Part shown: positions 4,734 to 30,881 of the stretch, piece after piece | Layout of the letters: each line of letters begins with the position of its first letter | How positions within the stretch are numbered: the first letter of the stretch is position 1 | Assembly: GCA_021784455.1 (NCBI GenBank) | Contig: JAJXSS010000004.1 | Coordinates: 1 to 32,164, forward strand | Direction: 5' to 3' | Length of the DNA: 32,164 nucleotides | Source of the DNA: Planctomycetota bacterium | GTDB taxonomy: Bacteria; Planctomycetota; Phycisphaerae; Phycisphaerales; Phycisphaeraceae | Position numbers and translations under genes: made by a program | The notes under the pieces: generated by a model | What the model saw: the letters and a program-made list of their open reading frames with translations, nothing else | What the model was told of the DNA's origin: nothing | Databases searched by the model: none

Positions 4734-5579
4734 TTACCGCCGGCGCCGGCAGAGCAGCAGTATCAGGCCGCCCAGGGCCATCTGGCTCAGCGCGGCAGGC
4801 TCGGGGATGGCATCCACGGTCAAGGTGAAACTGTCCACATAACCCGGAGCCGGCGGGTTGGTCGTTTCCTCGACATAGCTGCCGAAACTAATGGTCGTGA
4901 TGTTCGGGTTCTGGGAATCGAAGGCGGTCGTCGCGCGTACCACCTGGCCATCGATATACCACGTGGCCGTCCAGCGTGCGGGATGGGTGTCCAGCACGAT
5001 GGCAATGGTGTGCAGGCCGGTGGCGGTGCCGATGACCTGCTGGTTGGTCAGGCAGCCCGGACTGGTCGGCCCGCTGTAGCAGGAAAGGTTTTCATATGCG
5101 CTGGTAGAGCCGCGCATCAGCATCCAGGCCGACGGGTTGACCGCGTAGTGGTACCCCTGCGAATTGGTCCCGCCATTAGCGGTGGAGTACCCCAGGCCGA
5201 TAAAGTCCAGACTGGGGGCGGTGCAGTCTTCGCCGACCGACAAGGTATAGACATGGCCGGCCTGGGGTAGAAACGGCAGCGAGGCGCCCCCGTTGGTCGT
5301 CGTCAGCGTGCAGTGCGTGCCATCGGTGGTATAGCCGGTGCCGGGCGTCGTCCAGGTGGCGCCCCGGGTGCCACCGTAGGCTCCCAGCGTCACATCCGGA
5401 GCCGAACCCTCCAGGATCCCGCTGCGGCTGAAGGCATCGTGGTAGATGATCGTGTCGGCCGGCGCGGCCCCTGCCCGCCCCAGCGTCCAGGCCCCGGCCA
5501 GAGTCAGCAGAGTGATCCACCTGCGCGGGGCGGATCGCGCCTTCGAAGAGCGACGGCTACCGGTCATCGCCTGCCACAT
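4734..5579 (-). CDS. PEP-CTERM sorting domain protein with concanavalin/LamG-like ectodomain
   Basis: Signal peptide, IPEPAALSQMALGGLILLLCRRRR C-terminus, AGGAGG upstream of the ATG on the minus strand. Confidence 0.85.
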   Translation of the reverse strand: MWQAMTGSRRSSKARSAPRRWITLLTLAGAWTLGRAGAAPADTIIYHDAFSRSGILEGSAPDVTLGAYGGTRGATWTTPGTGYTTDGTHCTLTTTNGGASLPFLPQAGHVYTLSVGEDCTAPSLDFIGLGYSTANGGTNSQGYHYAVNPSAWMLMRGSTSAYENLSCYSGPTSPGCLTNQQVIGTATGLHTIAIVLDTHPARWTATWYIDGQVVRATTAFDSQNPNITTISFGSYVEETTNPPAPGYVDSFTLTVDAIPEPAALSQMALGGLILLLCRRRR

Positions 5580-10540: not shown

Positions 10541-13500
10541 TTATTCCAGGGTAATGAGGCGGAAGTCGTGAGTTTTCACGGTCAGGCCGCCCACACGATC
10601 GCCGGCGCAATTCAGGGGTTTCTGGGTTTCATCATCCACCACCTTGGCCCCCGCACGAGCCCCCGGCACGACAATATCCGTGTGGATGTCCGTAGGGCCG
10701 GGATTGACGATCACCAGCGTCAGACGCCTGGAATCGACGAGCTGATAGGCCGTGATGAGCAGTCCCGGCTGCGTGGCGGTTGCGGTCCCCTGCGAGCGCC
10801 AGTAGGGCACCCACACGGCGGACTCATCCAGAATCCCGGCCCGGCGGAGAATGGCCATGCCGCGTTGATCCCCATCCTCGCCAAACACCCCGCAGTCGTG
10901 CAGCAGGGCCATGGCCAGCACCGTGCGGGCGCGGGGATCGGTGAAGTTGATGGGAATGTTCTCCACCACCTGCACCGGGATGCCCGAGAACTTGCCGATC
11001 TGCATGCGGAAGCGGTCCACCCCCCAGGCACTGAACATGTCGTCATCCGCCGATTCCAGGTACAGCGACTCCCAGGCATTCATGCGGCTGAGCCAGGGCA
11101 CCTGGTACACGGCGCCGGGGGCATAGCAGTTGTTGGTGTCGGGAACGCCCAGGTCCTGCACGATGCGGGCGATGCGCTGGTAGAAGGCCCGCACCATGAA
11201 GATGTTCATGCGCGGCTGGGGGCGGCCTTCATCATCGAGGTACATTTCACCCTTATCCATCGAACTGCCGGCGCGCAGGGAACCCCAATCCCACCAATAG
11301 CCGCCGGCTCCGGTGTTCTTGGCCAGCAGGTAGAAGTAGTAGGCCTCGAAGTCGTAGCCGCTCTGGACGCACGGATCCTTGCTCAGAATGGCCCGCTGCT
11401 CGGGCAGCGGCCAGACCGGGTTGCCCTTGTCATCCTTGTAGCCCAGCAGGGAAGCATCGGGGTGGATGGCCGGATTGGTCACCCCCGTCCATTCCCCGGA
11501 GAAGACCCGGTTCTCCGGTTGCAGGTAGCCGATCATGTCCACGGCGCGGTACGCGCCGTACTCGTGGCCCTTGACCAGAAGCCAGCGGCCATCGGGCGCC
11601 CGGGGGGGATTGGGCAGCAGCGCGCACTGGCCGGGATAGGGCTTGCCCTTGTAATAGAACGGTTTGCCGGCGATCCAGTTCTGCCACTGCTCATCATTCA
11701 GCGGGAAAACGTGCACCCCGATGGTGCCCCACCAGGAGGCCCCGCCGATGTGCATCCGGTTGCTCCACTGCATTTCCCGGGCATCCGCGGGCAGCGGCTT
11801 GGTGGGCACGGCCATCACGGCAAAGCGGATGTGCCGCGGATGGTCGATAACCACCGGCTGGTTGAAAATGTCGATGCGCAGTTCGGTGGCATCCTTGGTT
11901 TTGACCAGGAAGATGTGCGGCTTGTGCGGGTCGATCCAGTAGCCCTCGTAGCTGTCCGTGTACCAGTACAGGCCGCGTTCGCCATCACCCACGTACATGA
12001 TGTAGGGGCGCAGGGAGCGCTGGGAGAGGTTGTTCCACAACTCGCCGGGCTTGGGATTGCCCGTCCAGGGGTGGTCCTTCTGGTACAGCACTACGCTGTC
12101 GCGCGGGGTGTAGGCGAAGCAGGTGTCGGCCGGATCGGTGATGGGGATGCGCAGCTCCAGACGGTCCAGGGAAACCGTGCCATTGGGCACGATGTCCATA
12201 TTGACCAGGTACTGCCCGGTGTAGTCGGCCTGGCCGTGCAGCTTGAAGGTCAGGCCCGCGAGGTGGCTTTGGGCTGATCCGCTGATCTTGGTGGGCAGGT
12301 CGGAGGGCGTCCAGGCAAAGGGCTTGTCGGCGGCGCCCAACGTCACGGTCCGCCCGTTTTGCGTCGCCACCAGGGTCATGGGCCCGGCCAGGATGTTCTG
12401 CCCGGCCGCGGGCGGGACCAGTTTGCTCTGGATGCCCGCCACCAGCCCCGTGTCGGTGAGTTTGACGCGGTCGCCGACGGTCTCGAAGGTGTCCGGGGCG
12501 GCCTTGATGGGGGTGTACGGCCGGACGACTTCGTGTTCCAGACCGCCCTTGAAGCTCTGGAAGGGAAATGTTTTCTGCTCGAAGGTGTCCTTCCGGGTCA
12601 CCAGGGGCTTGCCGGCGCCATCCTGGATTTCCATGGTGATGTCGTAATGACCCTCGGCCAGCGGGGGGAAGTCGAATTTCAGCTTGGCGGCACCGTCGGG
12701 GTCGAAGGGCACCGTATTGCGGCCGATGAGGCCCGCGCCCGGCGGGCCAAACCAGGCACTGAGGTATTTGGCCTCGTGGGCCAGCTTGGGGTCCAGACCG
12801 AGGATGCCGACATCGGCCGAGACGATCAGTTTGTGGAAACTGGGCAGGTAGGCAAATTGCAGCTTGGGGTGGGCGGGTTTGCGGGTGACGCTGAGGTTCT
12901 TGATGTAGCCCTGGACATCGGGATTCTGGCTTCTCCACAGGGTCAGGTCATTCCGGTAATAGAGGGCACCCGTGTCGGCATCCGTGACCTGGAGATAGAC
13001 CCGGTTATTGCGGCCGTTACGGGGATCCTCCAGGGCCAGCCCGGTAGCCTTGATCTGGATCTGGCGGGAGGCGCCGGGGGCTACCGTGACGGGATCGGTG
13101 CGGTCCAGCAGCACTTTGCCGTCGGCGGCCACGATCTTGGCGGCCACCTTGAGCCGGATGTCCTTGGCCTGCGGGTTGAACACGTGGAAGGCCAGATCCG
13201 GATTGCCATCCATCCAGTCGCCCACGCCGGTGAATTGCACCGCGGCGGCCTTGGAATCAAAGATCACTTCGGGGAAGCTCGGAAAGTCCAGCCAGGTGGC
13301 CGGGGCCCAGGTCCAATAGCTGCCGCCGGAATCCTGGGCCGACACGAGCTGCATGACCCAGTGAGTGCCATCCTGGATGTGCGATGTGCCCAGGCTCTTG
13401 AGCGGGATGGCGATCTCCTGCTCCCAATAACTGGCGGTGAAGTGCGACTTGGCGATGGCCCCGGTGTCGTAGTCAAAGCCCATCTGGCCGATGGACCAGC

Positions 13501-14038
13501 GCACTTTCTGATCGATGACCACATCCCAGGGATTGGTCATGAACTTGTAAAAGTACCCCGACACCGCTTTGGCCCGGCCGATGTTGCAGATCTCGATCTC
13601 GGTGTGGTCATCCCAGAGAATGGCGCCGCCGGCCGCCTCTTTGTCCAGCTTGTTCTTGACCGCCGCACGCAACGAGCCCTTGGGATAGACCGGATAGCGA
13701 AAGGCGAGGTAGAGGTTCTGGTCATCGTAGCCCACGTACCACACCGGCTGGAGGAACTGCGGCAGGGACATGCTCTCGTTGAGATTGGGAAAGCCGGTGA
13801 TGGCGGCGGCGCTCTGCCATTCGCCCGGCTCGATCCGGCCGTCGATGGTGGGCGGATGGACCATTTTGGGGATGCGCAGCACGGGGACCTCCTGGGGGGG
13901 CGCGGCCGAAACCGGCACGTTCAGACCCAGCAGGGCGGCCGTTGCCATCGCCAACAGGATTCGACGGGGACCGGAGAACTGAAGATGGGACAAAGCCACT
14001 ACCCACTTCGCCGGCTCGCGCAGGGAAGGCCAAGACAT
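10541..14038 (-). CDS. Large exported DUF6067-like (putative glycoside hydrolase) protein with N-terminal CBM9-like domain
   Basis: Signal peptide-like ILLAMATAALLGLNVPVSA; PTIDGRIEPGEWQSAAAITGF CBM9-like start; shares domain layout and motifs with the 17715-20696 protein. ATG at 14038 with GAGGTG upstream. Confidence 0.7.
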   Translation of the reverse strand: MSWPSLREPAKWVVALSHLQFSGPRRILLAMATAALLGLNVPVSAAPPQEVPVLRIPKMVHPPTIDGRIEPGEWQSAAAITGFPNLNESMSLPQFLQPVWYVGYDDQNLYLAFRYPVYPKGSLRAAVKNKLDKEAAGGAILWDDHTEIEICNIGRAKAVSGYFYKFMTNPWDVVIDQKVRWSIGQMGFDYDTGAIAKSHFTASYWEQEIAIPLKSLGTSHIQDGTHWVMQLVSAQDSGGSYWTWAPATWLDFPSFPEVIFDSKAAAVQFTGVGDWMDGNPDLAFHVFNPQAKDIRLKVAAKIVAADGKVLLDRTDPVTVAPGASRQIQIKATGLALEDPRNGRNNRVYLQVTDADTGALYYRNDLTLWRSQNPDVQGYIKNLSVTRKPAHPKLQFAYLPSFHKLIVSADVGILGLDPKLAHEAKYLSAWFGPPGAGLIGRNTVPFDPDGAAKLKFDFPPLAEGHYDITMEIQDGAGKPLVTRKDTFEQKTFPFQSFKGGLEHEVVRPYTPIKAAPDTFETVGDRVKLTDTGLVAGIQSKLVPPAAGQNILAGPMTLVATQNGRTVTLGAADKPFAWTPSDLPTKISGSAQSHLAGLTFKLHGQADYTGQYLVNMDIVPNGTVSLDRLELRIPITDPADTCFAYTPRDSVVLYQKDHPWTGNPKPGELWNNLSQRSLRPYIMYVGDGERGLYWYTDSYEGYWIDPHKPHIFLVKTKDATELRIDIFNQPVVIDHPRHIRFAVMAVPTKPLPADAREMQWSNRMHIGGASWWGTIGVHVFPLNDEQWQNWIAGKPFYYKGKPYPGQCALLPNPPRAPDGRWLLVKGHEYGAYRAVDMIGYLQPENRVFSGEWTGVTNPAIHPDASLLGYKDDKGNPVWPLPEQRAILSKDPCVQSGYDFEAYYFYLLAKNTGAGGYWWDWGSLRAGSSMDKGEMYLDDEGRPQPRMNIFMVRAFYQRIARIVQDLGVPDTNNCYAPGAVYQVPWLSRMNAWESLYLESADDDMFSAWGVDRFRMQIGKFSGIPVQVVENIPINFTDPRARTVLAMALLHDCGVFGEDGDQRGMAILRRAGILDESAVWVPYWRSQGTATATQPGLLITAYQLVDSRRLTLVIVNPGPTDIHTDIVVPGARAGAKVVDDETQKPLNCAGDRVGGLTVKTHDFRLITLE

Positions 14039-14228
14039 CAAGCACCTCGACGTGATGCGGGCAGTTCCGGACAGCGGCGAAGGCTTGCGATGGCCTTCGA
14101 GAACACGCCTGGCGGAACCGACTGATTGAATAAGTATACGATGGCCGGACCAAAAGCAAGCATATTGTGCGCAAGGCTTGGGAGAGCCGGTACAGGTTAA
14201 GCCGGCCTCGGGCCAGCCACGCCCGGAA

Positions 14229-14880: not shown

Positions 14881-15783
14881 ATGTTTGTGAAGACTCAGAT
14901 GATGTGCGGCCTCACGGTCTTGGCGACGGTGGCCTTGGGCAGCGAGTTGGCCCAGGCGGCGGCGGTCAACTTGTTCGACGCGACCACTGCCCCGGGCGGG
15001 ATCTATGTTGGGGCTGATAACGGGGCATCTTGGCCAGGCAATGCCGTCTCCTCAGGCACGGCCAATTACCCATCGGAGTTGGGCAGCACCCCGTCGGTCG
15101 TGGATGGAAACCCCACCACCTACTGGCTGGGCAATTCCCAAGGGGGGGATAACCTTGGTCTGAATCTGGGAATTGTTGCCGGTCACTACACCGACAACAC
15201 TGCCAGCACGTTTGTTCAAAACACCTTCGGGCAGATTGCCACCATCCGCATCTGGTCCTACCAATGGAGTTACGCCTATCCTGACACCAGCACGTATTGG
15301 CAGCAGTATCCCGGCGCCTTGAAGGTTGTCTATGCCACAGGTAATGGCGGTTGGACGAACGCTTATACTTTCGGCAGCGCCAGCTCCCCCAATAATCCGG
15401 ACCTGGCCACCGGCGGATTCTGGAACGCCACCACCATTACCGCCATCAACGGCAGCACGCCGACCTTGATCAGCGACCAGACCAACTACCCCGGCTATGT
15501 CGCTCTCGGGGCCAGTGCGTTCGTCAATGGCGGCACCACGGTTGATATGGGCAACGACGGCGTCCATGGCGAGGAATATGCCAACTACGCGGACGTGAGT
15601 GTGGCGATTCCGGCCGGGGCGACGGCCGTAGTTCTGGAGTTCGGTGCCATGGACTATAACGGCGGCGGTGCCAATATCGACGTGAATGATGTCCAGGCCT
15701 TCGCGCCCGTCCCCGAACCGGCCTCGCTGGCCCTGCTGGCGGCCGGTGGTCTGCTGCTGCTGCTGATGCGTCGGCGGGCTTGA
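14881..15783 (+). CDS. PEP-CTERM sorting domain protein (possible discoidin-like ectodomain)
   Basis: GAAAGGAGCGGCCTT-ATG; signal peptide; [37 protein letters not shown]-terminus. Confidence 0.9.
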   Translation: MFVKTQMMCGLTVLATVALGSELAQAAAVNLFDATTAPGGIYVGADNGASWPGNAVSSGTANYPSELGSTPSVVDGNPTTYWLGNSQGGDNLGLNLGIVAGHYTDNTASTFVQNTFGQIATIRIWSYQWSYAYPDTSTYWQQYPGALKVVYATGNGGWTNAYTFGSASSPNNPDLATGGFWNATTITAINGSTPTLISDQTNYPGYVALGASAFVNGGTTVDMGNDGVHGEEYANYADVSVAIPAGATAVVLEFGAMDYNGGGANIDVNDVQAFAPVPEPASLALLAAGGLLLLLMRRRA

Positions 15784-15875
15784 GGCGTTCCAGCGACGAG
15801 GCCGCCCGCCCGACGCGAAACAAGAAAAAGCAATGAATTTCAAATCTCGATCACGTTGACGAAAGGAGAAGTCTT

Positions 15876-16595
15876 ATGCTTACGAAGAATCAGGTGGCGT
15901 ATGGACTAGCAGCTTTGCTGCTGGTGGCCGTGGTTGGAATCGCGGCCGGTCCTGCACTGGGGGCGGTGATGGCACCGGCGCTGCCTGGCGGAGCAACCAA
16001 CGTTTTCTATGGCACCTTCGCCAACGCTGGCCCCGGCATGTCGGGCGGAAGCATCTCGTGGATCAACGATAACGATCTCTCCCAATACGTTTATGGCACG
16101 ACGATCCAACCGGCCATCTTTGCGGAAACCTCGCCGACCGATGTCAGCGGCCCTGGCCCGAACCCCAGCACCCTGTTCGGCCCGATCAATCTCATCCGCG
16201 TGTGGGTCTGGCAGGACCTCGTGGACAATTACCCCCCGGGCTGGGTGGTGGCGCCAACCAGCATCACCATCAAATCCGACTACACCGGCGGAAACGACAC
16301 CGATTACTACACCATTACCGCCAACAACTTTGCCACCACCATCGGGACCTTTACCCCGACGTGGGTTGACTACGGAGTAGCCAGCGGCAACTATCACTAC
16401 CTGTATGCCGATATCCCGGTGAGCATCGCTCCGACCAACGCCGTTTACCTGAATCTGGGCACACCCAGCGGCGCCAGCGGAGAGTTTCTGGTCCCGGAAA
16501 TCCAGGCGGCCAACGTCCCCGAACCGGCCTCCTTGGCCCTGCTGGCGGCCGGTGGCCTGCTCCTGCTGGGCCGGCGGCGGGCGGTACACCACTGA
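15876..16595 (+). CDS. PEP-CTERM sorting domain protein, paralogue of preceding gene
   Basis: GAAAGGAGAAGTCTT-ATG; signal peptide; [24 protein letters not shown]-terminus. Confidence 0.9.
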
Positions 16596-16666
16596 ACGCC
16601 GGATACACCGCAGGACTGTTGTCTGAAGGTCCCGGCAACCAGGGGAGATGGACAGGGAGCACAGCC

Positions 16667-17644
16667 ATGAGGCCCTCCATCATCACCGATCTGGTTCCGA
16701 CCCCGCGGTCGGGAAAGGGGCACCCTGCCGAGGTAGCGGGCCCTGCTCGGGCCGGTTTTACCCTGATCGAGCTTTTGGTGGTGATCTCCATCATCGCTCT
16801 GCTGGTGGCCCTGTTGCTGCCGGCCCTGAGCCAGGCCCGCACGGCTGCCCGCCGCGCCGAGTGCGCCAGCAACCAGCGGCAGATCTTCATCGCCACCGCT
16901 ACTTACGCCACCGATAACCGCGATTACCTGCCCGGCTGCAGCGCCTTTCAATGCGTCCACGGCGCGGACTACATGACGTCGTACAGCGCCTATCCGTGGG
17001 AATTTGCCGATACCGATTTCTGGATGAGTACTCCCATACTGCCTCCCGGTGTTGTCTGGTCTCAGACCGTGCGCTGGTACGGCGTGGGGGTGCTCATTGG
17101 CCAGCGCTACCTGCCCCCCACCTCGGTGGTGGCTTGCCCTGACTTTGTCTCGCCCACCAACGAAAACTTCACCCACAGCAATGGCGCGTTCATTTTGCCC
17201 CAGGCCGTGGCCAAGAGCACCCAGGCCAACGGCTCCATCGACCCCAATCAGGTCTGGATCAACGCCGGCACCAACCAGGGTTCGTACGTGCTCGACACGG
17301 TGCCCTACTATCAGCCCGATGCCACCAACCTGTCCAAGGGGCGTATCAACCAGCCTGGCCGCAACGGCGGCTTCTGGTCACCCGGGGGCGCCTATGCGGT
17401 GCCGCACATCACGGCCCTGATTCAGTGCCTGAGCACGTGGGCCTACGTCAACCCGCAACCCGCCACCGTCACCCACGAAATGGCGGGTGTCAACACGGCC
17501 TACATCGACGGCCACGTGCAGTGGACGCCGCTGACCCCCGATGTCTGGCAGGTGTTCAACAGCCTGGGCTTCCCGGCCAGCAATGCTGGTGAGATGGGCG
17601 GTCGCTATACGTTTTTCCCCTATGCCACCCTGCTGGCTCAATGA
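16667..17644 (+). CDS. Prepilin-type N-terminal cleavage/methylation domain protein
   Basis: [44 protein letters not shown] and C-terminal [11 protein letters not shown] typical of planctomycete pseudopilin-like proteins; ATG at 16667. Confidence 0.9.
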
Positions 17645-17714
17645 GGTGCTCTGGCGGTCTGATACCGCGACCGGGTTTCCCCCGACGTTTCCAAGCTCTG
17701 CCACAAAGGGGCCG

Positions 17715-20696
17715 ATGATGCCGCATCGTCTGAGTGTGCTTTTGCTCGTTCTGCAAGTCCTGCTCGCCGGCGTGGTCCACGCGGCGGACACACCGACCGC
17801 AGCATTCCAGTTCCTGGTGGGGCCCTATCCCTCCAAGGGGTTGTTCGAATACCAGCTCGACGCCGGGGATTACATGAAGGCCCACCCGGCCGTCGCCGGT
17901 TGGACGCTGCTGGTCCAGCGTAACGGGCAGGAGATCGTGCATCAGACGCACCCCCTGGCTGCCGACGGCCAGGCCCATGACTACCTGGATGTCGGTGCCA
18001 TGCCCGACAAGGCGGTCTATACGCTGGCCGCCATCCTTACCGACAAGACGGGTCAGGAACTGGCCCGCCAGACGGCCAGCTTCACCCGCCACATCATGCC
18101 TTTTGAAACGGCCAAGCCCACGGGCCTGAGCGACATCATCGTGCCGCCGTTTACGCCGCCGGTGGTGACGGCCGACGCGGTCTCCTGCTGGGGACGCACC
18201 TATCAACACGGACCCCAGGGCCTCTTGACCCAGATCACCGCCGCCGGCCAGCCCCTCTTGGCCCGCCCCGCGACCTTTATGGCCCGCGTGGGGAACGGCC
18301 CCCTGACCGCTTTGACCGGCGACGCGCCGCAACTCGCCGCGCTGGGCAAAGGCCAGGCTCGCCTCAGCCAGACCTTCCGTGGCCAGGGGATCACCCTGCA
18401 GGTGCGGGGCGCTTTTGATTACGACGGTTTCTACCTGTTCACGGTCCACCTGACGCCCGACAAGGCCCCCGTGGAGCTGCAGGATCTGCGGCTGGAGATC
18501 CCCTTTACGAACACCATGGCGCAGCTCATCGATGCAGCCGTGACCTGGCGGCGCATTCAGGGCCCGCAGAAGGAATGCATGGGCGAACTGGACCCCAAGC
18601 AGGGCGTGCTGTGGGATTCCAAGACCTACCCCAGCCGCAACTGGCCGCGCATCGGCAACATGCCCCCCTTCATCTGGGTCGGCGATGATTATCGCGGGCT
18701 GGTGTATTCCTGCGCCTCGGAGCAGGGCATGCACAACGATGAAAACCGCGCGGCCGCCCAACTCGAGCGCCGCGGTCAGGAGGTGATCTACACCGCGTGG
18801 TTCGTCAACAGCCCGCTGCACCTGACCCAGGAGCGCACCTTCCAGTTTGCCCTGCAGGCCAGCCCCTTCAAACGCATGCCCCAGAACTGGCGCCTGTGGC
18901 GCAACGAGGGCTATCGCGAACCTTACAAGGATGGCACCCTCTTCACCAACTGGTTCACCGATGGCTCCTACCCCACCTACGGCCGGTTCCTGACCCTGCC
19001 GCTGCTCAAGAAATACGCCGATGCCACCGGGGCCGACCAGGTGGGCACGATGGCCTCGGCCGTGTCCGAGTGCGGCGGCACGCCGGAATACCTCGAGTTC
19101 TGGCATGAGTGGGGCTCGGACCTGATGTGGCCGCACATCAAACGCGCCCCGCCGGAAGCATGGGCTGTCAAGATGATGGAAGAAGCCCACCTGCCCGTGA
19201 ATCCCTACATCCGGGTCGAATCGGCCTCCAACGTCTGCGCCACCAATGTCCAGTACCGGGTTTGGTGGTACAACCAGGAAGTGCGCCACGCCGACATCAG
19301 CTACATCTACCAGGACAATCCCCCTTACGTTTATTACTACGACCCGCCCAACGGCTATGGCTACATCCGCGATGATGGCCGCAAGGAAGCCACCAGTGCC
19401 ATCTGGAACTCGCGGCTGTTCATGAAGCGCATCGCCACCACGGCGATCGAGGACGGCAAGATCCACAGCCCCTACATCTGGGCCAACGCCATCAGCCCGG
19501 AGCTGCCCGGGCGCAGCTTCTGCCGCAAGATGCTCAACGGGGAGTACCTGTACACCAAGCTGTTCACCCTGGGCCAATGGCGGGTGATGTGTTCCCACCA
19601 GTGGGGCATGGAACTGGACTGGTATCCCTTCCCGCAGACCAATGAATCGCCCTATCCCAACATCGGCCCGGTGCGCAAGTACTGGCGCGAGGTCTACAGC
19701 CGCCTGCTTCTGCACGATGTGACCAACTTTTCCGGAGGCGACAACGCCGGCTACTCCGAGCGCTGGCTCAACGCCCTGGATGTGTTCTGGCTGGACGATC
19801 CCACGGTGCACTGGCACCCCTACTATCACAACGACACCCATCCGGTGGCCACCCAGCCCAACACCTACATCTCCACCTACACCGCCAAAGGGCGGGCCCT
19901 CTTGGTCATCTCCAACCAGAGCCATGACAGCGTTATCGAGCACATTCAGCCGGGGGATTTGAGCAGTTTCGGGGCCGGCGGGCTGAAATACTTCTACGAT
20001 GCCGAGACCGGGGAACAGATCGAGGCCACCGCCGATGGGGTGCTGCACCTGTTCATCCCCGGCGAGGATTACCGGGTGGTCATCGGTTTCCCTCAACCCT
20101 GGCCCTTCGCGGCCGCCCAGGCCCTGGGCTGCCCCGATCTTCTCCCCCAATCCACGCTCGATCCGGAGGACACCCTGACGGCCATCAGCCGACAACTTCT
20201 GACCTCCCCGAACTTCCACCGCATTCCGGGGGCGGATCAGCTTTACGAGCGCTGGATGGGCAAGGTCATGGCCGACCTGTGGAGTGACTCCAAGGATGTG
20301 GTCTATTACAACGCCCAGGCCTGCTCGAGCGTCAACTTTGGCCAGCCTGGCATCCAGGCTTCCATGTTTTACGACAAGCGGCGCGATGCCATGCTCGTGA
20401 ACTATTTCAACCACTCCGACCAAGATGTGTGCCTGGCCCCCGGGGTGCGCGACCAACTGACCAAACTGGCCGGTAAGACCGGGCACAACTACATCATCCA
20501 CCCCGTCACGGGCATCTCCGAGTGGGAGTTCATCGACATCCCCGCCCACCGCGGGCTGCTGGAGATCTACTACGTGGACAGTCCCGACTTCTGGGGGCCG
20601 CGTCATGGCCCGTTCCAGCCCGGCACCATGCTGGGCAACCTCCGCAAGGCCGTGGACACCAACCAGCGCACCCTGGGTGGCCGACCCTTGAAGTGA
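17715..20696 (+). CDS. Large exported DUF6067-like putative glycoside hydrolase
   Basis: Signal peptide LSVLLLVLQVLLAGVVHAAD; long intact ORF; motif collinearity with the 10541-14038 protein (e.g. LEIPFTNT.../PPFIWVGDDYRGLVY versus LRIPITDP.../PYIMYVGDGERGLYW). Confidence 0.75.
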   Translation: MMPHRLSVLLLVLQVLLAGVVHAADTPTAAFQFLVGPYPSKGLFEYQLDAGDYMKAHPAVAGWTLLVQRNGQEIVHQTHPLAADGQAHDYLDVGAMPDKAVYTLAAILTDKTGQELARQTASFTRHIMPFETAKPTGLSDIIVPPFTPPVVTADAVSCWGRTYQHGPQGLLTQITAAGQPLLARPATFMARVGNGPLTALTGDAPQLAALGKGQARLSQTFRGQGITLQVRGAFDYDGFYLFTVHLTPDKAPVELQDLRLEIPFTNTMAQLIDAAVTWRRIQGPQKECMGELDPKQGVLWDSKTYPSRNWPRIGNMPPFIWVGDDYRGLVYSCASEQGMHNDENRAAAQLERRGQEVIYTAWFVNSPLHLTQERTFQFALQASPFKRMPQNWRLWRNEGYREPYKDGTLFTNWFTDGSYPTYGRFLTLPLLKKYADATGADQVGTMASAVSECGGTPEYLEFWHEWGSDLMWPHIKRAPPEAWAVKMMEEAHLPVNPYIRVESASNVCATNVQYRVWWYNQEVRHADISYIYQDNPPYVYYYDPPNGYGYIRDDGRKEATSAIWNSRLFMKRIATTAIEDGKIHSPYIWANAISPELPGRSFCRKMLNGEYLYTKLFTLGQWRVMCSHQWGMELDWYPFPQTNESPYPNIGPVRKYWREVYSRLLLHDVTNFSGGDNAGYSERWLNALDVFWLDDPTVHWHPYYHNDTHPVATQPNTYISTYTAKGRALLVISNQSHDSVIEHIQPGDLSSFGAGGLKYFYDAETGEQIEATADGVLHLFIPGEDYRVVIGFPQPWPFAAAQALGCPDLLPQSTLDPEDTLTAISRQLLTSPNFHRIPGADQLYERWMGKVMADLWSDSKDVVYYNAQACSSVNFGQPGIQASMFYDKRRDAMLVNYFNHSDQDVCLAPGVRDQLTKLAGKTGHNYIIHPVTGISEWEFIDIPAHRGLLEIYYVDSPDFWGPRHGPFQPGTMLGNLRKAVDTNQRTLGGRPLK

Positions 20697-20700
20697 CATC

Positions 20701-21603
20701 ATGAGACCAATACCACCTGCATCCTGTGTCTTGCTCGCCCTGGTGGTCGCCGCCCCCGGGGCCTGGGCCATCGCTCCCGGCCAGACCACGGCGTTCCCCA
20801 CCAGCGGCGATTGGAGCGGCACCACCGCCAGCAACCAGCCGTGGAGTCTGGCCACCAGTTACGTTTACCAGTGGAATACCTATTGGAACGGCACCTGGTA
20901 CATCGGCTCGGCCGTGGCCGTTGCTCCCAACTATCTGCTGACCGCGGGCCACGTGGGCGCCACCCCGGGACAGAGCTACACCACCATCAACGGTACCACC
21001 TACACCGCCGTCAGCGCCCTAACGCCGCCGGCGGCGCCGGGACAGACCGCTGTGCCCGACCTGTGCCTGGTGAAGGTCGATCACACCCTGCCCGGCTATA
21101 ACACGCTCTACACCGGAAGCTTCTCCTCTGGCCAGAACCTGTTTCTGGTCGGCTACGGCCTGACCGGCACATATGCCCCGGCCAACTTCGCCTACACCCT
21201 GACCTCAGGCACCGATGGCATCGCCCGCTGGGGGACCAATGCCGTCTACTTGACCCCCTTTACCCAGGCTTCGGGTAGCTACAACTCCATGGTCTTTGAG
21301 ATGAGTGCCTACGACACCAACACCCCCTACGAGGCGTTTTTCGGCAACGGCGACTCCGGCGGCGGCACCTTTGTGAAGGTCGGCAACCAGTGGGAGCTGG
21401 CCGGCATCAATGCCTATATCTACTCCGGGGTCAACGGCTATTACGCCAGCAGCGCCATCGCCGTCCCATCCTACGCAGCTTGGATCAGCGCCAACGCCCC
21501 CGTTCCCGAACCGGCCAGTCTTGCAGCCCTCATCGGCCTGGGCTGCCTGCTGCTGCGCCATCGCTCCAGGCCGGCCTCGCGTACAGACTCCGCCTCAAAA
21601 TGA
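20701..21603 (+). CDS. Trypsin-like serine protease with PEP-CTERM anchor
   Basis: Triad motifs LLTAGHV, DLCLVKV, GNGDSGGGTF; C-terminus [23 protein letters not shown]; signal peptide. Confidence 0.85.
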   Translation: MRPIPPASCVLLALVVAAPGAWAIAPGQTTAFPTSGDWSGTTASNQPWSLATSYVYQWNTYWNGTWYIGSAVAVAPNYLLTAGHVGATPGQSYTTINGTTYTAVSALTPPAAPGQTAVPDLCLVKVDHTLPGYNTLYTGSFSSGQNLFLVGYGLTGTYAPANFAYTLTSGTDGIARWGTNAVYLTPFTQASGSYNSMVFEMSAYDTNTPYEAFFGNGDSGGGTFVKVGNQWELAGINAYIYSGVNGYYASSAIAVPSYAAWISANAPVPEPASLAALIGLGCLLLRHRSRPASRTDSASK

Positions 21604-21629
21604 CTTGCCACCAGGAAACAGGAGCATTT

Positions 21630-22619
21630 ATGCCCACCGCCTTTCGCGTCAGCGCTTTAGCGCTCGTGGTCTCAGCCATCGCCGCCCTGTGGTCCGCCGC
21701 GCCCTGCCGCGCCGATGGCATTGCCATCCACAGCGGGCAGAAGCTCGCTTTCCTGGGGGACTCGATTACCCAGTTCGGCTGGGAGCATGCCAGCGGCTAC
21801 CTGCACCTGGTCGTCAATGGCCTGGAAACCTGCGGCATCAAGGTCATCCCCATCCCGGCCGGCATCAGCGGCAATACCTCCCGCGACATGCTGGGGCGGC
21901 TCCAGCGCGATGTCCTGGCCAAGAAGCCCGATTGGCTCACCATCAGTTGCGGTGTCAATGATGTGTGGCACAACCCCGGCGGCGTGCCCCTGGAGGAGTA
22001 TCAGAAGAACATGACCGAAATCGTGGATCGCGCCCAGGCCGCGGGCATCAAGGTCATGATCCTCACCGCCACCATGATCTACGAGGACCAGGCCAACAGC
22101 CTCAACCAGCGGCTGATCCCTTACAACGCCTTTCTGCGCGAGCTGGCGGCACGCAAGCACTGCCTGCTGGCCGATGTGGGCGCCGACATGCAGGCCCGGA
22201 TCCACGAGGCAATCGCCCACGGGCATCACCCCGGCCACCTCTTGACTGTGGATGGGGTGCATATGAATCCCGTGGGCAACATGATGATGGCCACGGCCAT
22301 CCTCCAGGCTTTCGGCCTCGAGGCCGCCCAGCTCCACCAGGTCCGCCAGGCCTGGCTCGACAAGCCCGCGGGCTGGACCGCCCGCGTCACCTGCACTGTA
22401 TCCGCCGACAAGCCCCTGACCTTGGGCCAATACCTGAAGCTTCGGGACCAGGCTCTGGCCGCCAACCAGGATGTACCCCAGATGCTCCAGAACTCCTTCC
22501 AGAAGGATGCCAATGCCATCCTTTCGGCCGGCGGCACCCACAGCCCCCGGCAGCGGATCCAGGACCAGTTCACGCGCGATGTGGACCAGCGCCTGGGCTC
22601 AGCCGGGAATCCAAAATGA
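21630..22619 (+). CDS. Exported SGNH/GDSL hydrolase
   Basis: GDSITQ block I, GVNDVWH block III, DGVHMNPVGNMMMA block V; ATG at 21630 with AGGAAACAGGAG upstream; signal peptide. Confidence 0.9.
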   Translation: MPTAFRVSALALVVSAIAALWSAAPCRADGIAIHSGQKLAFLGDSITQFGWEHASGYLHLVVNGLETCGIKVIPIPAGISGNTSRDMLGRLQRDVLAKKPDWLTISCGVNDVWHNPGGVPLEEYQKNMTEIVDRAQAAGIKVMILTATMIYEDQANSLNQRLIPYNAFLRELAARKHCLLADVGADMQARIHEAIAHGHHPGHLLTVDGVHMNPVGNMMMATAILQAFGLEAAQLHQVRQAWLDKPAGWTARVTCTVSADKPLTLGQYLKLRDQALAANQDVPQMLQNSFQKDANAILSAGGTHSPRQRIQDQFTRDVDQRLGSAGNPK

Positions 22620-23843
22620 CGTCTGCGGCGTGACCGGTCGGGGATCGCCCTCAACTTCCACGGCGATACTGATGCCGATGGGATCGGGGAACGGCTGCGG
22701 CAGGCCCTCAACCATCAGCCGCGGGCCGACCTGGTGAAAAGGCAGCGGGCGGTTGTCGCCCACCAGGCGCACGGTCAGAACGTGATTGGCGATCTCCGCA
22801 TAACAGAGGCTGGCTCCGGTACTGTGCAGGACGTGCAGGTAGACCGTTCGCCCGCGCACCGTGACGTTGCCGAAATTATTCCAGGAAAAGGGCGAGCGCC
22901 CGCTGTGGGGCAGGAATTCGCCGTAGCGCTTCAGCCAGGCCCCGGCCTGCCGCAGAATCCGGGCCGAGGGCTCGGGGATCGTGCCATCGCCCCGGGGCCC
23001 GATGTTCAACAGGAGATTGCCCCCATGCCGGGCCGTCTCGGTCAACATCTGGATGACGGCCTGGGCCGGTTTCCAGGCCTCGTCCCCCGCGTGGTAGCCC
23101 CAGTTGTTGTTGAGCGTCATGCAGGCCTCCCAGGGGATGTCTTCCTTGGGCGGACGGATGGCCTGCTCGGAATTCACGATGTCTTCGATCTGGGGTCCGT
23201 TACGGCTGTTGATCAGGATCCCCGGCTGCAGGCGGCGCACCATGGCGTTGGTGGCGGCCCCATCCAGGGGCTGGGGGATGCAGCCGTCGTACCACAGGAT
23301 GTCAATCGGCCCGTAGCGGGTCAGGAGTTCCTGGAGCTGGGCCCGGTAGTAGGCGATGAAGCGCTGGCGGGCCTCTTCACGAGGCCACTGCTGGGGCCAG
23401 TCCCGTTCGAAGGCGCTGGGGTAATCGGGGTGTGTCCAGTCGGCTACCGAGTAGTACAACCCGACTTTCAGGCCGCCGCGCCGCACCGCCTGCACGAAGG
23501 CCGCCACCAGGTCGCGCCGGGGCCCTCGACGTGCCGCGTTGAAGTCCCGCGTCGCCGTATCCCACAGGGCGAAGCCATCGTGGTGCCGCGTCGTCAGGAC
23601 CATGTACCCCATGCCGGCCTGCCGCGCCAACTCCACCCAGGCATCCGGATTGAAGTTCTCGGCCCGGAAAGGATCGACATAGAGGCGTGCATACTCCTCC
23701 AGCGGAATCCGCTCCCGGTTCATGACCCACTCACCGCGGCCGGCGACGGAATAGGGCCCCCAATGGATGAACATCCCGTAACGGGCCTGGTGGAACCACT
23801 GCAGGGGTGCGGGCGAGGCTTGGGCAGGGGTGAGGCTTGGCAT
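22599..23843 (-). CDS. Alpha-L-fucosidase, GH29 family
   Basis: ARYGMFIHWGPYSV, TTRHHDGFALWDT, YGPIDILWYDG, WEACMTLNNNWGY, LLLNIGPRGDGTIPE; ATG at 23843 with AGGAG upstream; no signal peptide. Confidence 0.93.
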   Translation of the reverse strand: MPSLTPAQASPAPLQWFHQARYGMFIHWGPYSVAGRGEWVMNRERIPLEEYARLYVDPFRAENFNPDAWVELARQAGMGYMVLTTRHHDGFALWDTATRDFNAARRGPRRDLVAAFVQAVRRGGLKVGLYYSVADWTHPDYPSAFERDWPQQWPREEARQRFIAYYRAQLQELLTRYGPIDILWYDGCIPQPLDGAATNAMVRRLQPGILINSRNGPQIEDIVNSEQAIRPPKEDIPWEACMTLNNNWGYHAGDEAWKPAQAVIQMLTETARHGGNLLLNIGPRGDGTIPEPSARILRQAGAWLKRYGEFLPHSGRSPFSWNNFGNVTVRGRTVYLHVLHSTGASLCYAEIANHVLTVRLVGDNRPLPFHQVGPRLMVEGLPQPFPDPIGISIAVEVEGDPRPVTPQTSFWIPG

Positions 23844-23955
23844 AGGACGGCTCCTGGGGGCCGCGGTTTGAGCCCGCACGGCAAGTGGATCGGGTCGCAC
23901 GGAGAGTCCGGATCAGAGCCCTGGCCCGCGCGCCAGAGGTAAGGCGGCAGGGCGG

Positions 23956-25501: not shown

Positions 25502-26599
25502 ATGGCAAGCACCGCCCTGTCAATGCGTCAACGCCGGATGGTGCAAGCCCTCTGGCGTTTTGGGCCCCAGAGCCGCATCCAGTTGCACACGCAACTGGGC
25601 CTGAGGCCCAACACGGTGGGGGCGGATGCGGACCGCCTGGTGCGTCTGGGCATCCTGCGGGAGAGCGACGGGGTGGTGCGGGGCCGGGGCCGGCCCGCCC
25701 GGCCGCTGAGGATTGACGACCGCCGCCGCCAGGTGGTGGGGTTGGCGTTGCGGCGGCAGCGTATCGAGGTGGCGCGGCTGAGCCTGACCGGACAGTTGGT
25801 GGGCCAGATCCTGGGGCAGGAGGTTGCCGAGCCCCGTGACATGGTCGGGGTGGGGGCCGCCTGCCTGCGTGCCTGCGTGGACCGCAACACGCTGGCGGTG
25901 GGCATCAGCACGCCGGGATTCGTGGAATCCGAGGCACAGCGCATTGTGTTTTCGGCCATCTGGCCCGCGCACGGGCCCATCCCCGTGCAGGAGTTGTACC
26001 GGGCCAGTGGCGCCCGGCCCGTGGTGCTGGAGAACGACATGCACGCCCTGGCCGCCCAATGGCTCTTGTCGCAGCGTTGCGAACCGCGCGAAGACGCCTT
26101 GCTGGTGTACATCGATGATGGGCAGCTTGGCTCGGCGCTGCTGGTGGGGGGGCGCCCCAACCGCGGGTGTATCACGGGGGCCAACGAGCTGGGGCACACG
26201 CGGCTGCCGGTGGCAACCGAGGGGTGCTACTGCGGGCAGACCGGGTGCATCGAGAGAATCGTCAGCAGTGCGTTCGCGGGGGGCGGCCGGCCCGGGTTGA
26301 CGCTGGCCCAGCGCCTGGCCCGGGGCGGGGACCCGAAGGTGGATGAGATCGTGGGCCACCTGGGGATGGTGCTGGCCAACGCGGTGAATTTCACGCGGGT
26401 GCAGCAACTGGTTCTGGCCGGGCCGTTAGGCGCCTTGCCGGCCCTGGCCGAGCCGCTGACCCGGCTCGTGCGCCGGTTGGTGCTGCCGACGCTGGCGGAG
26501 CGGATCACCATGGACGCCTGGGGCCAGAGCGTGGCGGCGCCGGGCATTGTGGCCGGATGGTTGGCGCTGACCCAGATCCTGATCGACAGTTGGGAGTAG
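25502..26599 (+). CDS. ROK family transcriptional regulator (winged HTH + ROK domain)
   Basis: N-terminal HTH (RRMVQALWRFGPQSRIQLHTQLGLRPNTVGADADRLVRLGILRE); GANELGHTRLP and CYCGQTGCIERIVS ROK motif. Confidence 0.9.
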   Translation: MASTALSMRQRRMVQALWRFGPQSRIQLHTQLGLRPNTVGADADRLVRLGILRESDGVVRGRGRPARPLRIDDRRRQVVGLALRRQRIEVARLSLTGQLVGQILGQEVAEPRDMVGVGAACLRACVDRNTLAVGISTPGFVESEAQRIVFSAIWPAHGPIPVQELYRASGARPVVLENDMHALAAQWLLSQRCEPREDALLVYIDDGQLGSALLVGGRPNRGCITGANELGHTRLPVATEGCYCGQTGCIERIVSSAFAGGGRPGLTLAQRLARGGDPKVDEIVGHLGMVLANAVNFTRVQQLVLAGPLGALPALAEPLTRLVRRLVLPTLAERITMDAWGQSVAAPGIVAGWLALTQILIDSWE

Positions 26600-28650: not shown

Positions 28651-29673
28651 TCAGCCTACGAATTCGTTGCCCACCTTGCGGGCCCGGGTGGGTTTGTCCA
28701 GGTTGATGCCCAGGGACACGCCGACTTCCACCAGGAGATTCCAGCCCGCCGCCATGTAAACGTAGCCGGACAGGTCGCCGGCTGAAGGCACGCGGATCGT
28801 GGGAAAAGCCGTGGGACGATCGGCCACGGCGATCACCGTCAGGCCCACGCCTTTGGCCAGAACATCGATGAATTTGGATTCGGAATCGGCGTAGGGATCC
28901 AGCGAGATGACCACATCGGAGGGGTCCATGACCTCTTCGATGCCGTGCACGGCGTAGGTGCCCTCGAGGAAGTCGGATTTACGGCGGGTGATCTCGTTGG
29001 TCTTGAGGGTCAGTTCCTCGGCCACCCCATCATTGCGGCCAGCGAAGTAGATCGTGCCGGCTTGGGCGATCTTCCTGACCAGATCGGCGGGGATGGACGT
29101 GGTCAGAGCCTCCTGAATCAGGCCCCGGAGCGATTGCAGTCGCCCCTGGAGCGTGGCTTGGCCACTAAACAGGTCCAGGAGCGCATGATAGAAGAGGGCC
29201 TGCTCCTGGACGCTCTTGGTGGCGGCCACGGCGCCTTCAGGTCCGCAGGACAGCACGTATCCCTTGGTCGCCAGGGATTCCAACTTGGAACCGGCCGAAG
29301 CGGTCAGGCTGAAAAGGTTCCGGTGGCCGCGGTTCTTCAGCTCCGTGAAGAGCTTGATGACTTCGGAGGTGCGGCCCGAGTTGGACAGGGCGAACACGGC
29401 CCAGTCGTCCAGTTGATATTCCTGAGACTGCCGGCCGGCGTCGGTGAAAAGGGCCGGCGCTTTCAGGCCGCGGCGCATGGCCTGGGTCATCATGTGCTTG
29501 GCCGGGAAGATGCGGCTGGAGCCTTCGCCGGTCAGAAGCAGCTTGCCGGCTTTGGCGATGCGCCCCGCCACGTCGGCGGCCTGGTTCAGGTTGAATTGCG
29601 CGACGATCTGCGGCGTCTGCATCATGTCGCGGACGAGACCGAACTGGCTGTACTTCTGGTCGGTGAGATTCAT
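28651..29673 (-). CDS. SIS domain sugar isomerase-like protein
   Basis: LLTGEGSSRIFPAKH, FALSNSGRTSEVIKL, GPEGAVAATKSVQEQALFYH. Confidence 0.9.
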   Translation of the reverse strand: MNLTDQKYSQFGLVRDMMQTPQIVAQFNLNQAADVAGRIAKAGKLLLTGEGSSRIFPAKHMMTQAMRRGLKAPALFTDAGRQSQEYQLDDWAVFALSNSGRTSEVIKLFTELKNRGHRNLFSLTASAGSKLESLATKGYVLSCGPEGAVAATKSVQEQALFYHALLDLFSGQATLQGRLQSLRGLIQEALTTSIPADLVRKIAQAGTIYFAGRNDGVAEELTLKTNEITRRKSDFLEGTYAVHGIEEVMDPSDVVISLDPYADSESKFIDVLAKGVGLTVIAVADRPTAFPTIRVPSAGDLSGYVYMAAGWNLLVEVGVSLGINLDKPTRARKVGNEFVG

Positions 29674-30881
29674 GGTTTAGCCTTTTGGGTGTTGAGGGCG
29701 GCGTAAACGGGCAGAGGCCCCACGAGCGGCCGGGCGTATTCCAGGAAGGCGGAAGTCACGAACATACCGTTGTTGGCGATGAAACGGTCGGGCATGGGCC
29801 GGGCGGCGTTGGCCACCTTGGCCAGGGCAATGGTTCCAAAACCGGCCTTGTAAGGTGCCCCGCGTTTGGACCGGCGTTCGATGGTGACCATGACCTCGCT
29901 GATGCCTTTGAGCGCCAGTTGTACGGCCTGTCGGCCGCAGCCATAGGCTTCATCAAAATCCAGCTTGATGCCGCGATCGGCGGCGCACATCTGCAGCGAC
30001 TCGGTCACCTGGAACTCCCCCCGCCAGCCGAACTTGTTCTTGATCATCTGGTGCAGCATCATGGCCGCACTGGTGCCACCCATGGCCCCGAACTCGACGT
30101 TGTTGAACTTATCGCGTGTCTGCGAGGCGCTGACGGGGGTGCCATCCGCATAGGTGATGCCCTCCCCACAGACGATGGAGCAGAAGCCGTACTTCCGGTG
30201 CGCATCAGCCACGGCGGCCAGGAAGGCTTGGGCGTCGAATGGCCGCTCCGGCAGCAGAATGAGGTGGGGCGCATCGGCGGGGTAGGTCTTGGCCAGGGCG
30301 GCGGCGGCGGGCAGCCAGCCGGCGCTGCGGCCGACGGTCTGGAAGATCACGTATTGATCCACCCGCTGCATGTCGCGGGCGAGCAAGCCGGCCTGCAGCA
30401 CCGACAAGGCGATATAGCGGGCGGCGCTGGGATACCCGGGGGTATGGTCCGTGCCGTCGAGGTCGTTGTCCACGGTTTTGGCCACACCCACGCCCTTGAG
30501 GTCATAGCCCTGCTGGCGGGCGAACGCGGTGACGCGATGGATGGTGTCCATCGTGTCGTTGCCGCCGATCATGAAGTAGTAGTGAATGTCGTATTTCTGG
30601 AGCTGGGCCAGCACGGCCGGCAGTTCCTCATCCTTGAGCTTGTGCCGGCTGGAGCCCAGGGCGCTGCTGGGCGTGCCGCGCAAAGTGGCCAGAGTGGCCT
30701 TGGTCTGGGCGCCCAGGTCCACCAGGTGATCGCCCAGCACGCCCTCGATTCCGAAGCGCATGCCCAAAACGCGGCCGATCGCCTTGGACTTGAGGGCCGC
30801 CTCGACCACGCCGACCAACGAGGCGTTGATCACCGCGGTGGGGCCGCCGGATTGGCCGATGATGGCATTGCCTTGAACCAT
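29670..30881 (-). CDS. 6-phosphofructokinase family, predicted PPi-dependent type
   Basis: IGQSGGPTAVINASL, MIGGNDTMDT, VAKTVDNDLDGTDHTPGYPSAARY. Lys in KTVDND and Asp in GGND match PPi-PFKs rather than GGDGS/PGTIDND of ATP-PFKs. Confidence 0.88.
   Translation of the reverse strand: MVQGNAIIGQSGGPTAVINASLVGVVEAALKSKAIGRVLGMRFGIEGVLGDHLVDLGAQTKATLATLRGTPSSALGSSRHKLKDEELPAVLAQLQKYDIHYYFMIGGNDTMDTIHRVTAFARQQGYDLKGVGVAKTVDNDLDGTDHTPGYPSAARYIALSVLQAGLLARDMQRVDQYVIFQTVGRSAGWLPAAAALAKTYPADAPHLILLPERPFDAQAFLAAVADAHRKYGFCSIVCGEGITYADGTPVSASQTRDKFNNVEFGAMGGTSAAMMLHQMIKNKFGWRGEFQVTESLQMCAADRGIKLDFDEAYGCGRQAVQLALKGISEVMVTIERRSKRGAPYKAGFGTIALAKVANAARPMPDRFIANNGMFVTSAFLEYARPLVGPLPVYAALNTQKAKP

Follow-up and report, generated by a model that had tools for sequence, protein, structure and literature searches.

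A recurrent PEP-CTERM and prepilin gene pair beside glycan-active enzyme genes in Phycisphaerae, with a possible role in glycan capture

What do six closely spaced genes, encoding two PEP-CTERM proteins, a prepilin, a giant putative glycoside hydrolase, a protease and an esterase, accomplish together in a Planctomycetota bacterium of the family Phycisphaeraceae? They occupy positions 14881–22619 of a 32,164-nucleotide stretch (assembly GCA_021784455.1, contig JAJXSS010000004.1, positions 1–32,164), which was analysed as a whole and is referred to here as the window. The original prediction, made from the sequence of the window, described a seven-gene, co-directional unit, possibly for surface-attached glycan capture and processing. 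The genes are consecutive, all on the plus strand, with intergenic gaps of 4–92 bp, but they number six, and the title of that prediction likewise names only six; with two of the six not conserved in the unit, the seven-gene unit is rejected. The general idea of glycan capture fits the evidence: with a probability of roughly 0.45, the core of PEP-CTERM protein, prepilin and giant would represent a single copy of a modular Phycisphaerae unit for capturing and digesting glycans, a unit that serves its own enzymes. The six genes are given below; the starts of the prepilin, giant and SGNH genes were refined by signal-peptide and ribosome-binding-site context.

14881–15783, plus strand: PEP-CTERM protein 1 (PEP-CTERM profile; VDGNPTTYW stretch), with a suspected discoidin/CBM32-like ectodomain
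15876–16595, plus strand: PEP-CTERM protein 2 (PEP-CTERM profile), related to protein 1, immediately 5' of the prepilin gene
about 16667–17644 (alternative TTG start at 16619), plus strand: prepilin or pseudopilin with a locus-specific ectodomain (N_methyl profile)
about 17715–20696, plus strand: giant exported GH123_N-like putative glycoside hydrolase (PF19543)
20701–21603, plus strand: trypsin-like serine protease with a PEP-CTERM-like tail (Trypsin profile; LLTAGH and GDSGGG motifs)
about 21630–22619, plus strand: exported SGNH/GDSL esterase, acetyl-xylan-esterase-like (Lipase_GDSL_2)

The succession of a PEP-CTERM gene and a prepilin gene recurs genome-wide in several Phycisphaerae, which is a stronger finding than the run itself and extends beyond it. 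A pair was counted where a prepilin match lay downstream of a PEP-CTERM match, on its strand and less than 500 bp away; counts were derived from profile-match lists, which are complete for genomes G072 and G090. In the genome that contains the window (4.17 Mb in 528 contigs, 70.8% complete), the 45 PEP-CTERM matches listed (weak, sub-cut-off ones included) and the 60 N-methylation matches form 13 pairs, against 0.16 expected under uniform placement. The corresponding values are 22 versus 0.17 in G072 and 13 versus 0.15 in G090, and at least three pairs are present in G009. Across the window's genome, G072 and G090, 48 pairs have the PEP-CTERM gene first, compared with 0–2 neighbours in reverse order or on opposite strands. 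No pairs were found among the matches listed for G037, which belongs to another family of the order and has 19 and 46 matches to the two profiles, or among those listed for G435, from another class of the phylum. Significance is exaggerated by the uniform null, given the dense packing of genes and the possible clustering of those for exported proteins; with gene adjacency as the null, we estimate that no more than about one pair would still be expected in each genome. The fixed order of the pair is not accounted for by clustering. The searchable literature, whose coverage excludes most subscription papers and all preprints, yielded no description of such a pair.

The pairs are coupled to genes for glycan-active enzymes. 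In the window's own genome, genes downstream of pairs encode glycoside hydrolases (GH) of families GH42, GH5 (twice) and GH16, the GH123_N giant and three proteins that match nothing in Pfam; in one further case, a metallophosphatase gene comes first and a GH99 gene after it. For G072 and G090, 20 genes located 3' of pairs were scanned, mostly the first and sometimes the second gene, chosen by size before annotation. Seven encode a glycoside hydrolase, a sulfatase or a carbohydrate-binding module (CBM) above the curated cut-off, five more gave weaker or sialidase-like matches (12/20 on a lenient count), and two are plainly housekeeping genes. The control genes, not matched for length or export, came from arbitrary regions of G072 and G090 and included no glycan-degrading enzymes (0/20).

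Sequence comparisons further indicate that prepilin ectodomains vary together with the enzyme encoded next to them. The window prepilin is 45–56% identical to the prepilins beside orthologs of the giant and, among 57 prepilins, its ectodomain matches only those beside such orthologs (L013, L015/L066 and L017; 40–53%) and beside a giant paralog (L056; 60%). Over 47 prepilin loci, homology of both the prepilin and the downstream gene was detected for ten locus pairs, two of which are tandem prepilins with one common neighbour, against 0.27 expected by permutation (reached in 0 of 3000). Homology of PEP-CTERM proteins and prepilins likewise coincides in five cases, compared with 0.44 expected (0/2000). 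Because related loci are counted more than once, these tests are treated as descriptive. Two whole triads have each been copied as a unit: contig C57 of G072 carries both a giant triad (L066) and a paralog triad (L056), duplicated within one genome, and in G090 the triads L072 and L083 share 58% identity in the PEP-CTERM protein, 50% in the prepilin and 52% in the downstream protein. As a separate observation, the window prepilin is nearer to its counterpart on the paralog side (60%) than to those on the ortholog side (40–53%), the opposite of the giant (64–73% to orthologs versus 44% to the paralog), and paralogous loci may have exchanged prepilins.

How much of the run is retained in relatives? 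Giant orthologs (64–73% identity) were identified on six contigs of Planctomycetota metagenome-assembled genomes (MAGs) and in 7 of the 397 genomes of the class sample, the window's own included, representing three families; a paralog, 44–47% identical, occurs in genus g106. The order PEP-CTERM, prepilin, giant is kept in L013 and L015, and in L017 the first two genes are swapped (prepilin, PEP-CTERM, giant). The trypsin-like protease has no counterpart in any related locus examined and is lineage-specific, outside the conserved core. In L013, L014, L015 and L018, relatives of the SGNH and GH29 genes are neighbours on the opposite strand, followed by GH95-like and GH31-like genes. There are, therefore, two conserved pieces: the PEP-CTERM/prepilin/giant core and, separate from it, an esterase/fucosidase cassette, which is rearranged in the window's genome. 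The predicted conservation of gene order is thus borne out in related Phycisphaerae MAGs for the core, but the full set is not a conserved unit. Chance gene order is rejected by this conservation together with the pair statistics.

Within the run, promoter and terminator scans gave signals no higher than shuffled expectation, so that a single transcript is plausible and the run can be regarded as a candidate transcription unit; searches for RNA elements and tRNAs found none. The PEP-CTERM protein of L013, by eye near-identical in L014, gave no BLAST match to its counterparts in the window and L015, which looks like ectodomain replacement at a fixed position. The N-terminus of the giant includes a twin-arginine-like stretch (TRRDV/TRRKV) in the L013, L014 and L015 orthologs and a Sec-like signal peptide in the window; the export route of this enzyme may differ from genome to genome.

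The family calls of the original prediction were matched by profile searches, with a marginal PEP-CTERM tail on the protease (16.1 versus 20.7 bits; 20.5–21 in the genome search). PEP-CTERM proteins 1 and 2 (21.9 and 23 bits, respectively) exceed the curated cut-off of 20.7 bits, and both fit the exosortase sorting signal, with a PEP motif, a transmembrane stretch and a basic tail at the C-terminus. Homologs of protein 1 are present at L015, L017 and L056, and protein 2 is 32% identical to PEP-CTERM proteins of L015 and L066. A discoidin/CBM32-like ectodomain is suspected in protein 1: its sequence contains the stretch VDGNPTTYW, which we take to be typical of discoidin-like domains, and Foldseek with its low-confidence AlphaFold model (mean predicted local distance difference test score, pLDDT, 44) returned mostly CBM32-type domains as best, weak matches (E about 0.04). 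The prepilin contains the N-terminal cleavage/methylation motif (29.1 versus 21.2 bits; second profile, 26.9 versus 16.3) and scored under the curated cut-offs for DUF1559/H-X9-DG (PF07596, 20.1 versus 23.3 bits; TIGR04294, 13.5 versus 19 bits); its AlphaFold model (mean pLDDT 32) was unusable. The giant matches PF19543 (now GH123_N and presumably the former DUF6067) at 48 versus 22 bits over residues 136–392, with the profile partly covered. The protease matches the Trypsin profile (26.2 versus 20.6 bits), and a search against solved structures gave no relative for it. The SGNH protein matches Lipase_GDSL_2 (E 4e-26) and, among solved structures, acetyl xylan esterases (E about 1e-20).

Exosortase genes were detected in all seven genomes checked, with four matches over the cut-off in the window's own genome, and contig C16 of that genome carries a type II secretion system (T2SS) cluster, with GspG and GspD over the cut-off and GspH-, I-, J-, L- and M-like genes; both sorting routes therefore exist in the cell. 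Among 43 PEP-CTERM proteins encoded 5' of prepilins, the assignable ectodomains are Passenger-associated-transport repeats (six), LamG (two), F5/8 type C, GLEYA and PA14. The first of these, repeats of the autotransporter-type beta-helix, recur in or beside pairs (L051:5011–9018; L032:2–2131; 6/43 paired PEP-CTERM proteins).

In the mechanism that we infer, an exosortase-sorted, lectin-like PEP-CTERM protein would sit on the outer surface and the pseudopilin would be assembled by type II secretion/type IV filament machinery; jointly, the two would bind a particular polysaccharide and carry it as far as the outer membrane or into the periplasm. There, the exported enzymes of the locus (the giant, the SGNH esterase, and the GH29, GH95-like and GH31-like proteins) would strip and cut it. 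Several observations weigh against this reading. For most of the 43 paired PEP-CTERM proteins, the ectodomain could be assigned to no family, the discoidin call for protein 1 depends on a low-confidence model, and the giant has no GH123 catalytic-domain match in Pfam and no solved relative by profile. About half of the prepilins lack a PEP-CTERM partner; in L014, the PEP-CTERM gene immediately precedes the giant, with no prepilin called; and G030, a genome of the same family (7.4 Mb, one contig), has at least 150 prepilin matches versus 9 PEP-CTERM matches, so that prepilin expansion is possible without a PEP-CTERM partner.

The main rival explanation concerns enzyme traffic, not glycan capture: the prepilin would be a dedicated minor pseudopilin recruiting the neighbouring enzyme to a shared T2SS, and the PEP-CTERM protein a surface anchor retaining that enzyme. 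This would account for the co-variation of prepilin ectodomain and downstream enzyme, and is compatible with the T2SS gene cluster of the window's genome and the export signals on the enzymes. We nevertheless consider it unlikely, given that two pairs precede genes for non-secreted products (pyruvate:ferredoxin oxidoreductase and ABC-F) and that the assignable PEP-CTERM ectodomains resemble glycan-binding domains, not protein-docking ones. Somewhat less probable again is plain clustering, whereby abundant genes for exported proteins gather in polysaccharide loci under shared regulation, PEP-CTERM protein and prepilin having no direct cooperation. It is hard to reconcile with the fixed order (48 PEP-CTERM-first pairs versus 0–2 reversed in three genomes), the duplication of entire triads, the co-varying homology of the two proteins and the lack of pairs among the matches listed for G037, even though both families are numerous (45 and 60 matches listed in the window's genome) and the null models used were not conditioned on clusters of carbohydrate-active enzymes (CAZymes). 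A matrix role, in which the pair forms a holdfast or extracellular matrix while the enzymes act on polysaccharide made by the cell itself and remodel it, recalls the definition of PEP-CTERM/exosortase systems through their association with exopolysaccharide genes (PMC1569441) but is improbable, as no glycosyltransferase or polysaccharide-export family was found among the window proteins scanned and the neighbours cover many hydrolase families, as catabolism of diverse glycans would predict.

The putative capture-and-digestion core is embedded in a wider locus, with these further enzyme genes:

10541–14041, minus strand: second, divergent GH123_N-like giant (PF19543, 34.2 versus 22 bits), with a relative in L017
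8322–10610, minus strand: GH31/melibiase-like enzyme (Pfam), with relatives in L013, L014, L015, L017 and L018
5694–8321, minus strand: GH95-like enzyme (GH95 catalytic domain, E 3e-33), with relatives about 69% identical
22599–23900, minus strand: GH29 alpha-L-fucosidase family enzyme (PF01120, E 2e-85), with relatives adjoining SGNH genes in L013, L014, L015 and L018

A Gfo/Idh/MocA oxidoreductase is also encoded on the minus strand of this locus. Going only by the family names GH29, GH95-like, GH31-like and esterase, our guess at the substrate is a fucosylated, acetylated polysaccharide. The gene adjoining the GH95-like one (4734–5579, minus strand) has a weak PEP-CTERM tail, at 17.6 bits, under the cut-off. 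Flanking the locus are ROK-family (25502–26599, plus strand), SIS-domain (28651–29673, minus strand) and phosphofructokinase-family (29670–30881, minus strand) genes, which may have sugar-handling functions tied to it.

How does the pair compare with known systems? In the SusCD polysaccharide utilisation loci of Bacteroidota, a surface module of two genes recurs next to enzymes that are specific to a substrate. The pair described here is likewise a repeated two-gene surface module beside enzymes, but carries exosortase and prepilin sorting signals, and no SusC or SusD match was found among the 19 window proteins scanned. Tentatively, the pair could be the functional SusCD counterpart in Phycisphaerae, a substrate-specific two-protein surface module that is duplicated and re-specialised for each enzyme set, employs two sorting systems, and captures and takes in polysaccharide; if so, the glycan targets of planctomycete gene clusters that are still unassigned would be predictable from the sequence of the pair. 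The Verru_Chthon cassette, which originates from the Planctomycetes–Verrucomicrobia–Chlamydiae (PVC) group, also includes prepilin-like proteins (TIGR02596, TIGR02599), and the window prepilin falls far under its cut-offs (25.4 versus 70 and 18.3 versus 256.5 bits, respectively). Planctomycetes are rich in polysaccharide-degrading enzymes, and in 2024 their CAZyme clusters still awaited functional characterisation, with 30–34% of the genes unassigned (PMC11131199). The pair bears on these clusters: coupled to every enzyme set, it would put a name to some of their unassigned genes. It would also open the pilus-capture hypothesis to genetic study and provide a sequence-only marker for such loci.

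Pilus-based polysaccharide capture in planctomycetes is an already published hypothesis; for the pair itself, the searchable literature yielded no description. Boedeker et al. (2017, PMC5394234) found dextran binding by pili-like fibres of planctomycetes and, from dextran imaging, proposed capture with periplasmic accumulation; glycan capture by such fibres is also treated in a review (PMC12078418). The pili-like fibres and crateriform structures of Planctopirus and Gemmata resemble the present system in belonging to planctomycetes and in involving filament-type proteins proposed to bring polysaccharide into the periplasm, but they come from another class, and the available text (PMC5394234) assigns no genes to them and describes no PEP-CTERM partner or enzyme coupling. 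In Akkermansiaceae, also PVC bacteria, a type-IV-pilin locus, MUL2, has been implicated in attachment to complex glycans (PMC13174399). PilM, encoded there, had no match among the 19 window proteins scanned, and whereas MUL2 is a single conserved four-gene locus, prepilins in the Phycisphaerae are numerous and specific to their loci, each one accompanied by a PEP-CTERM protein and an enzyme of its own.

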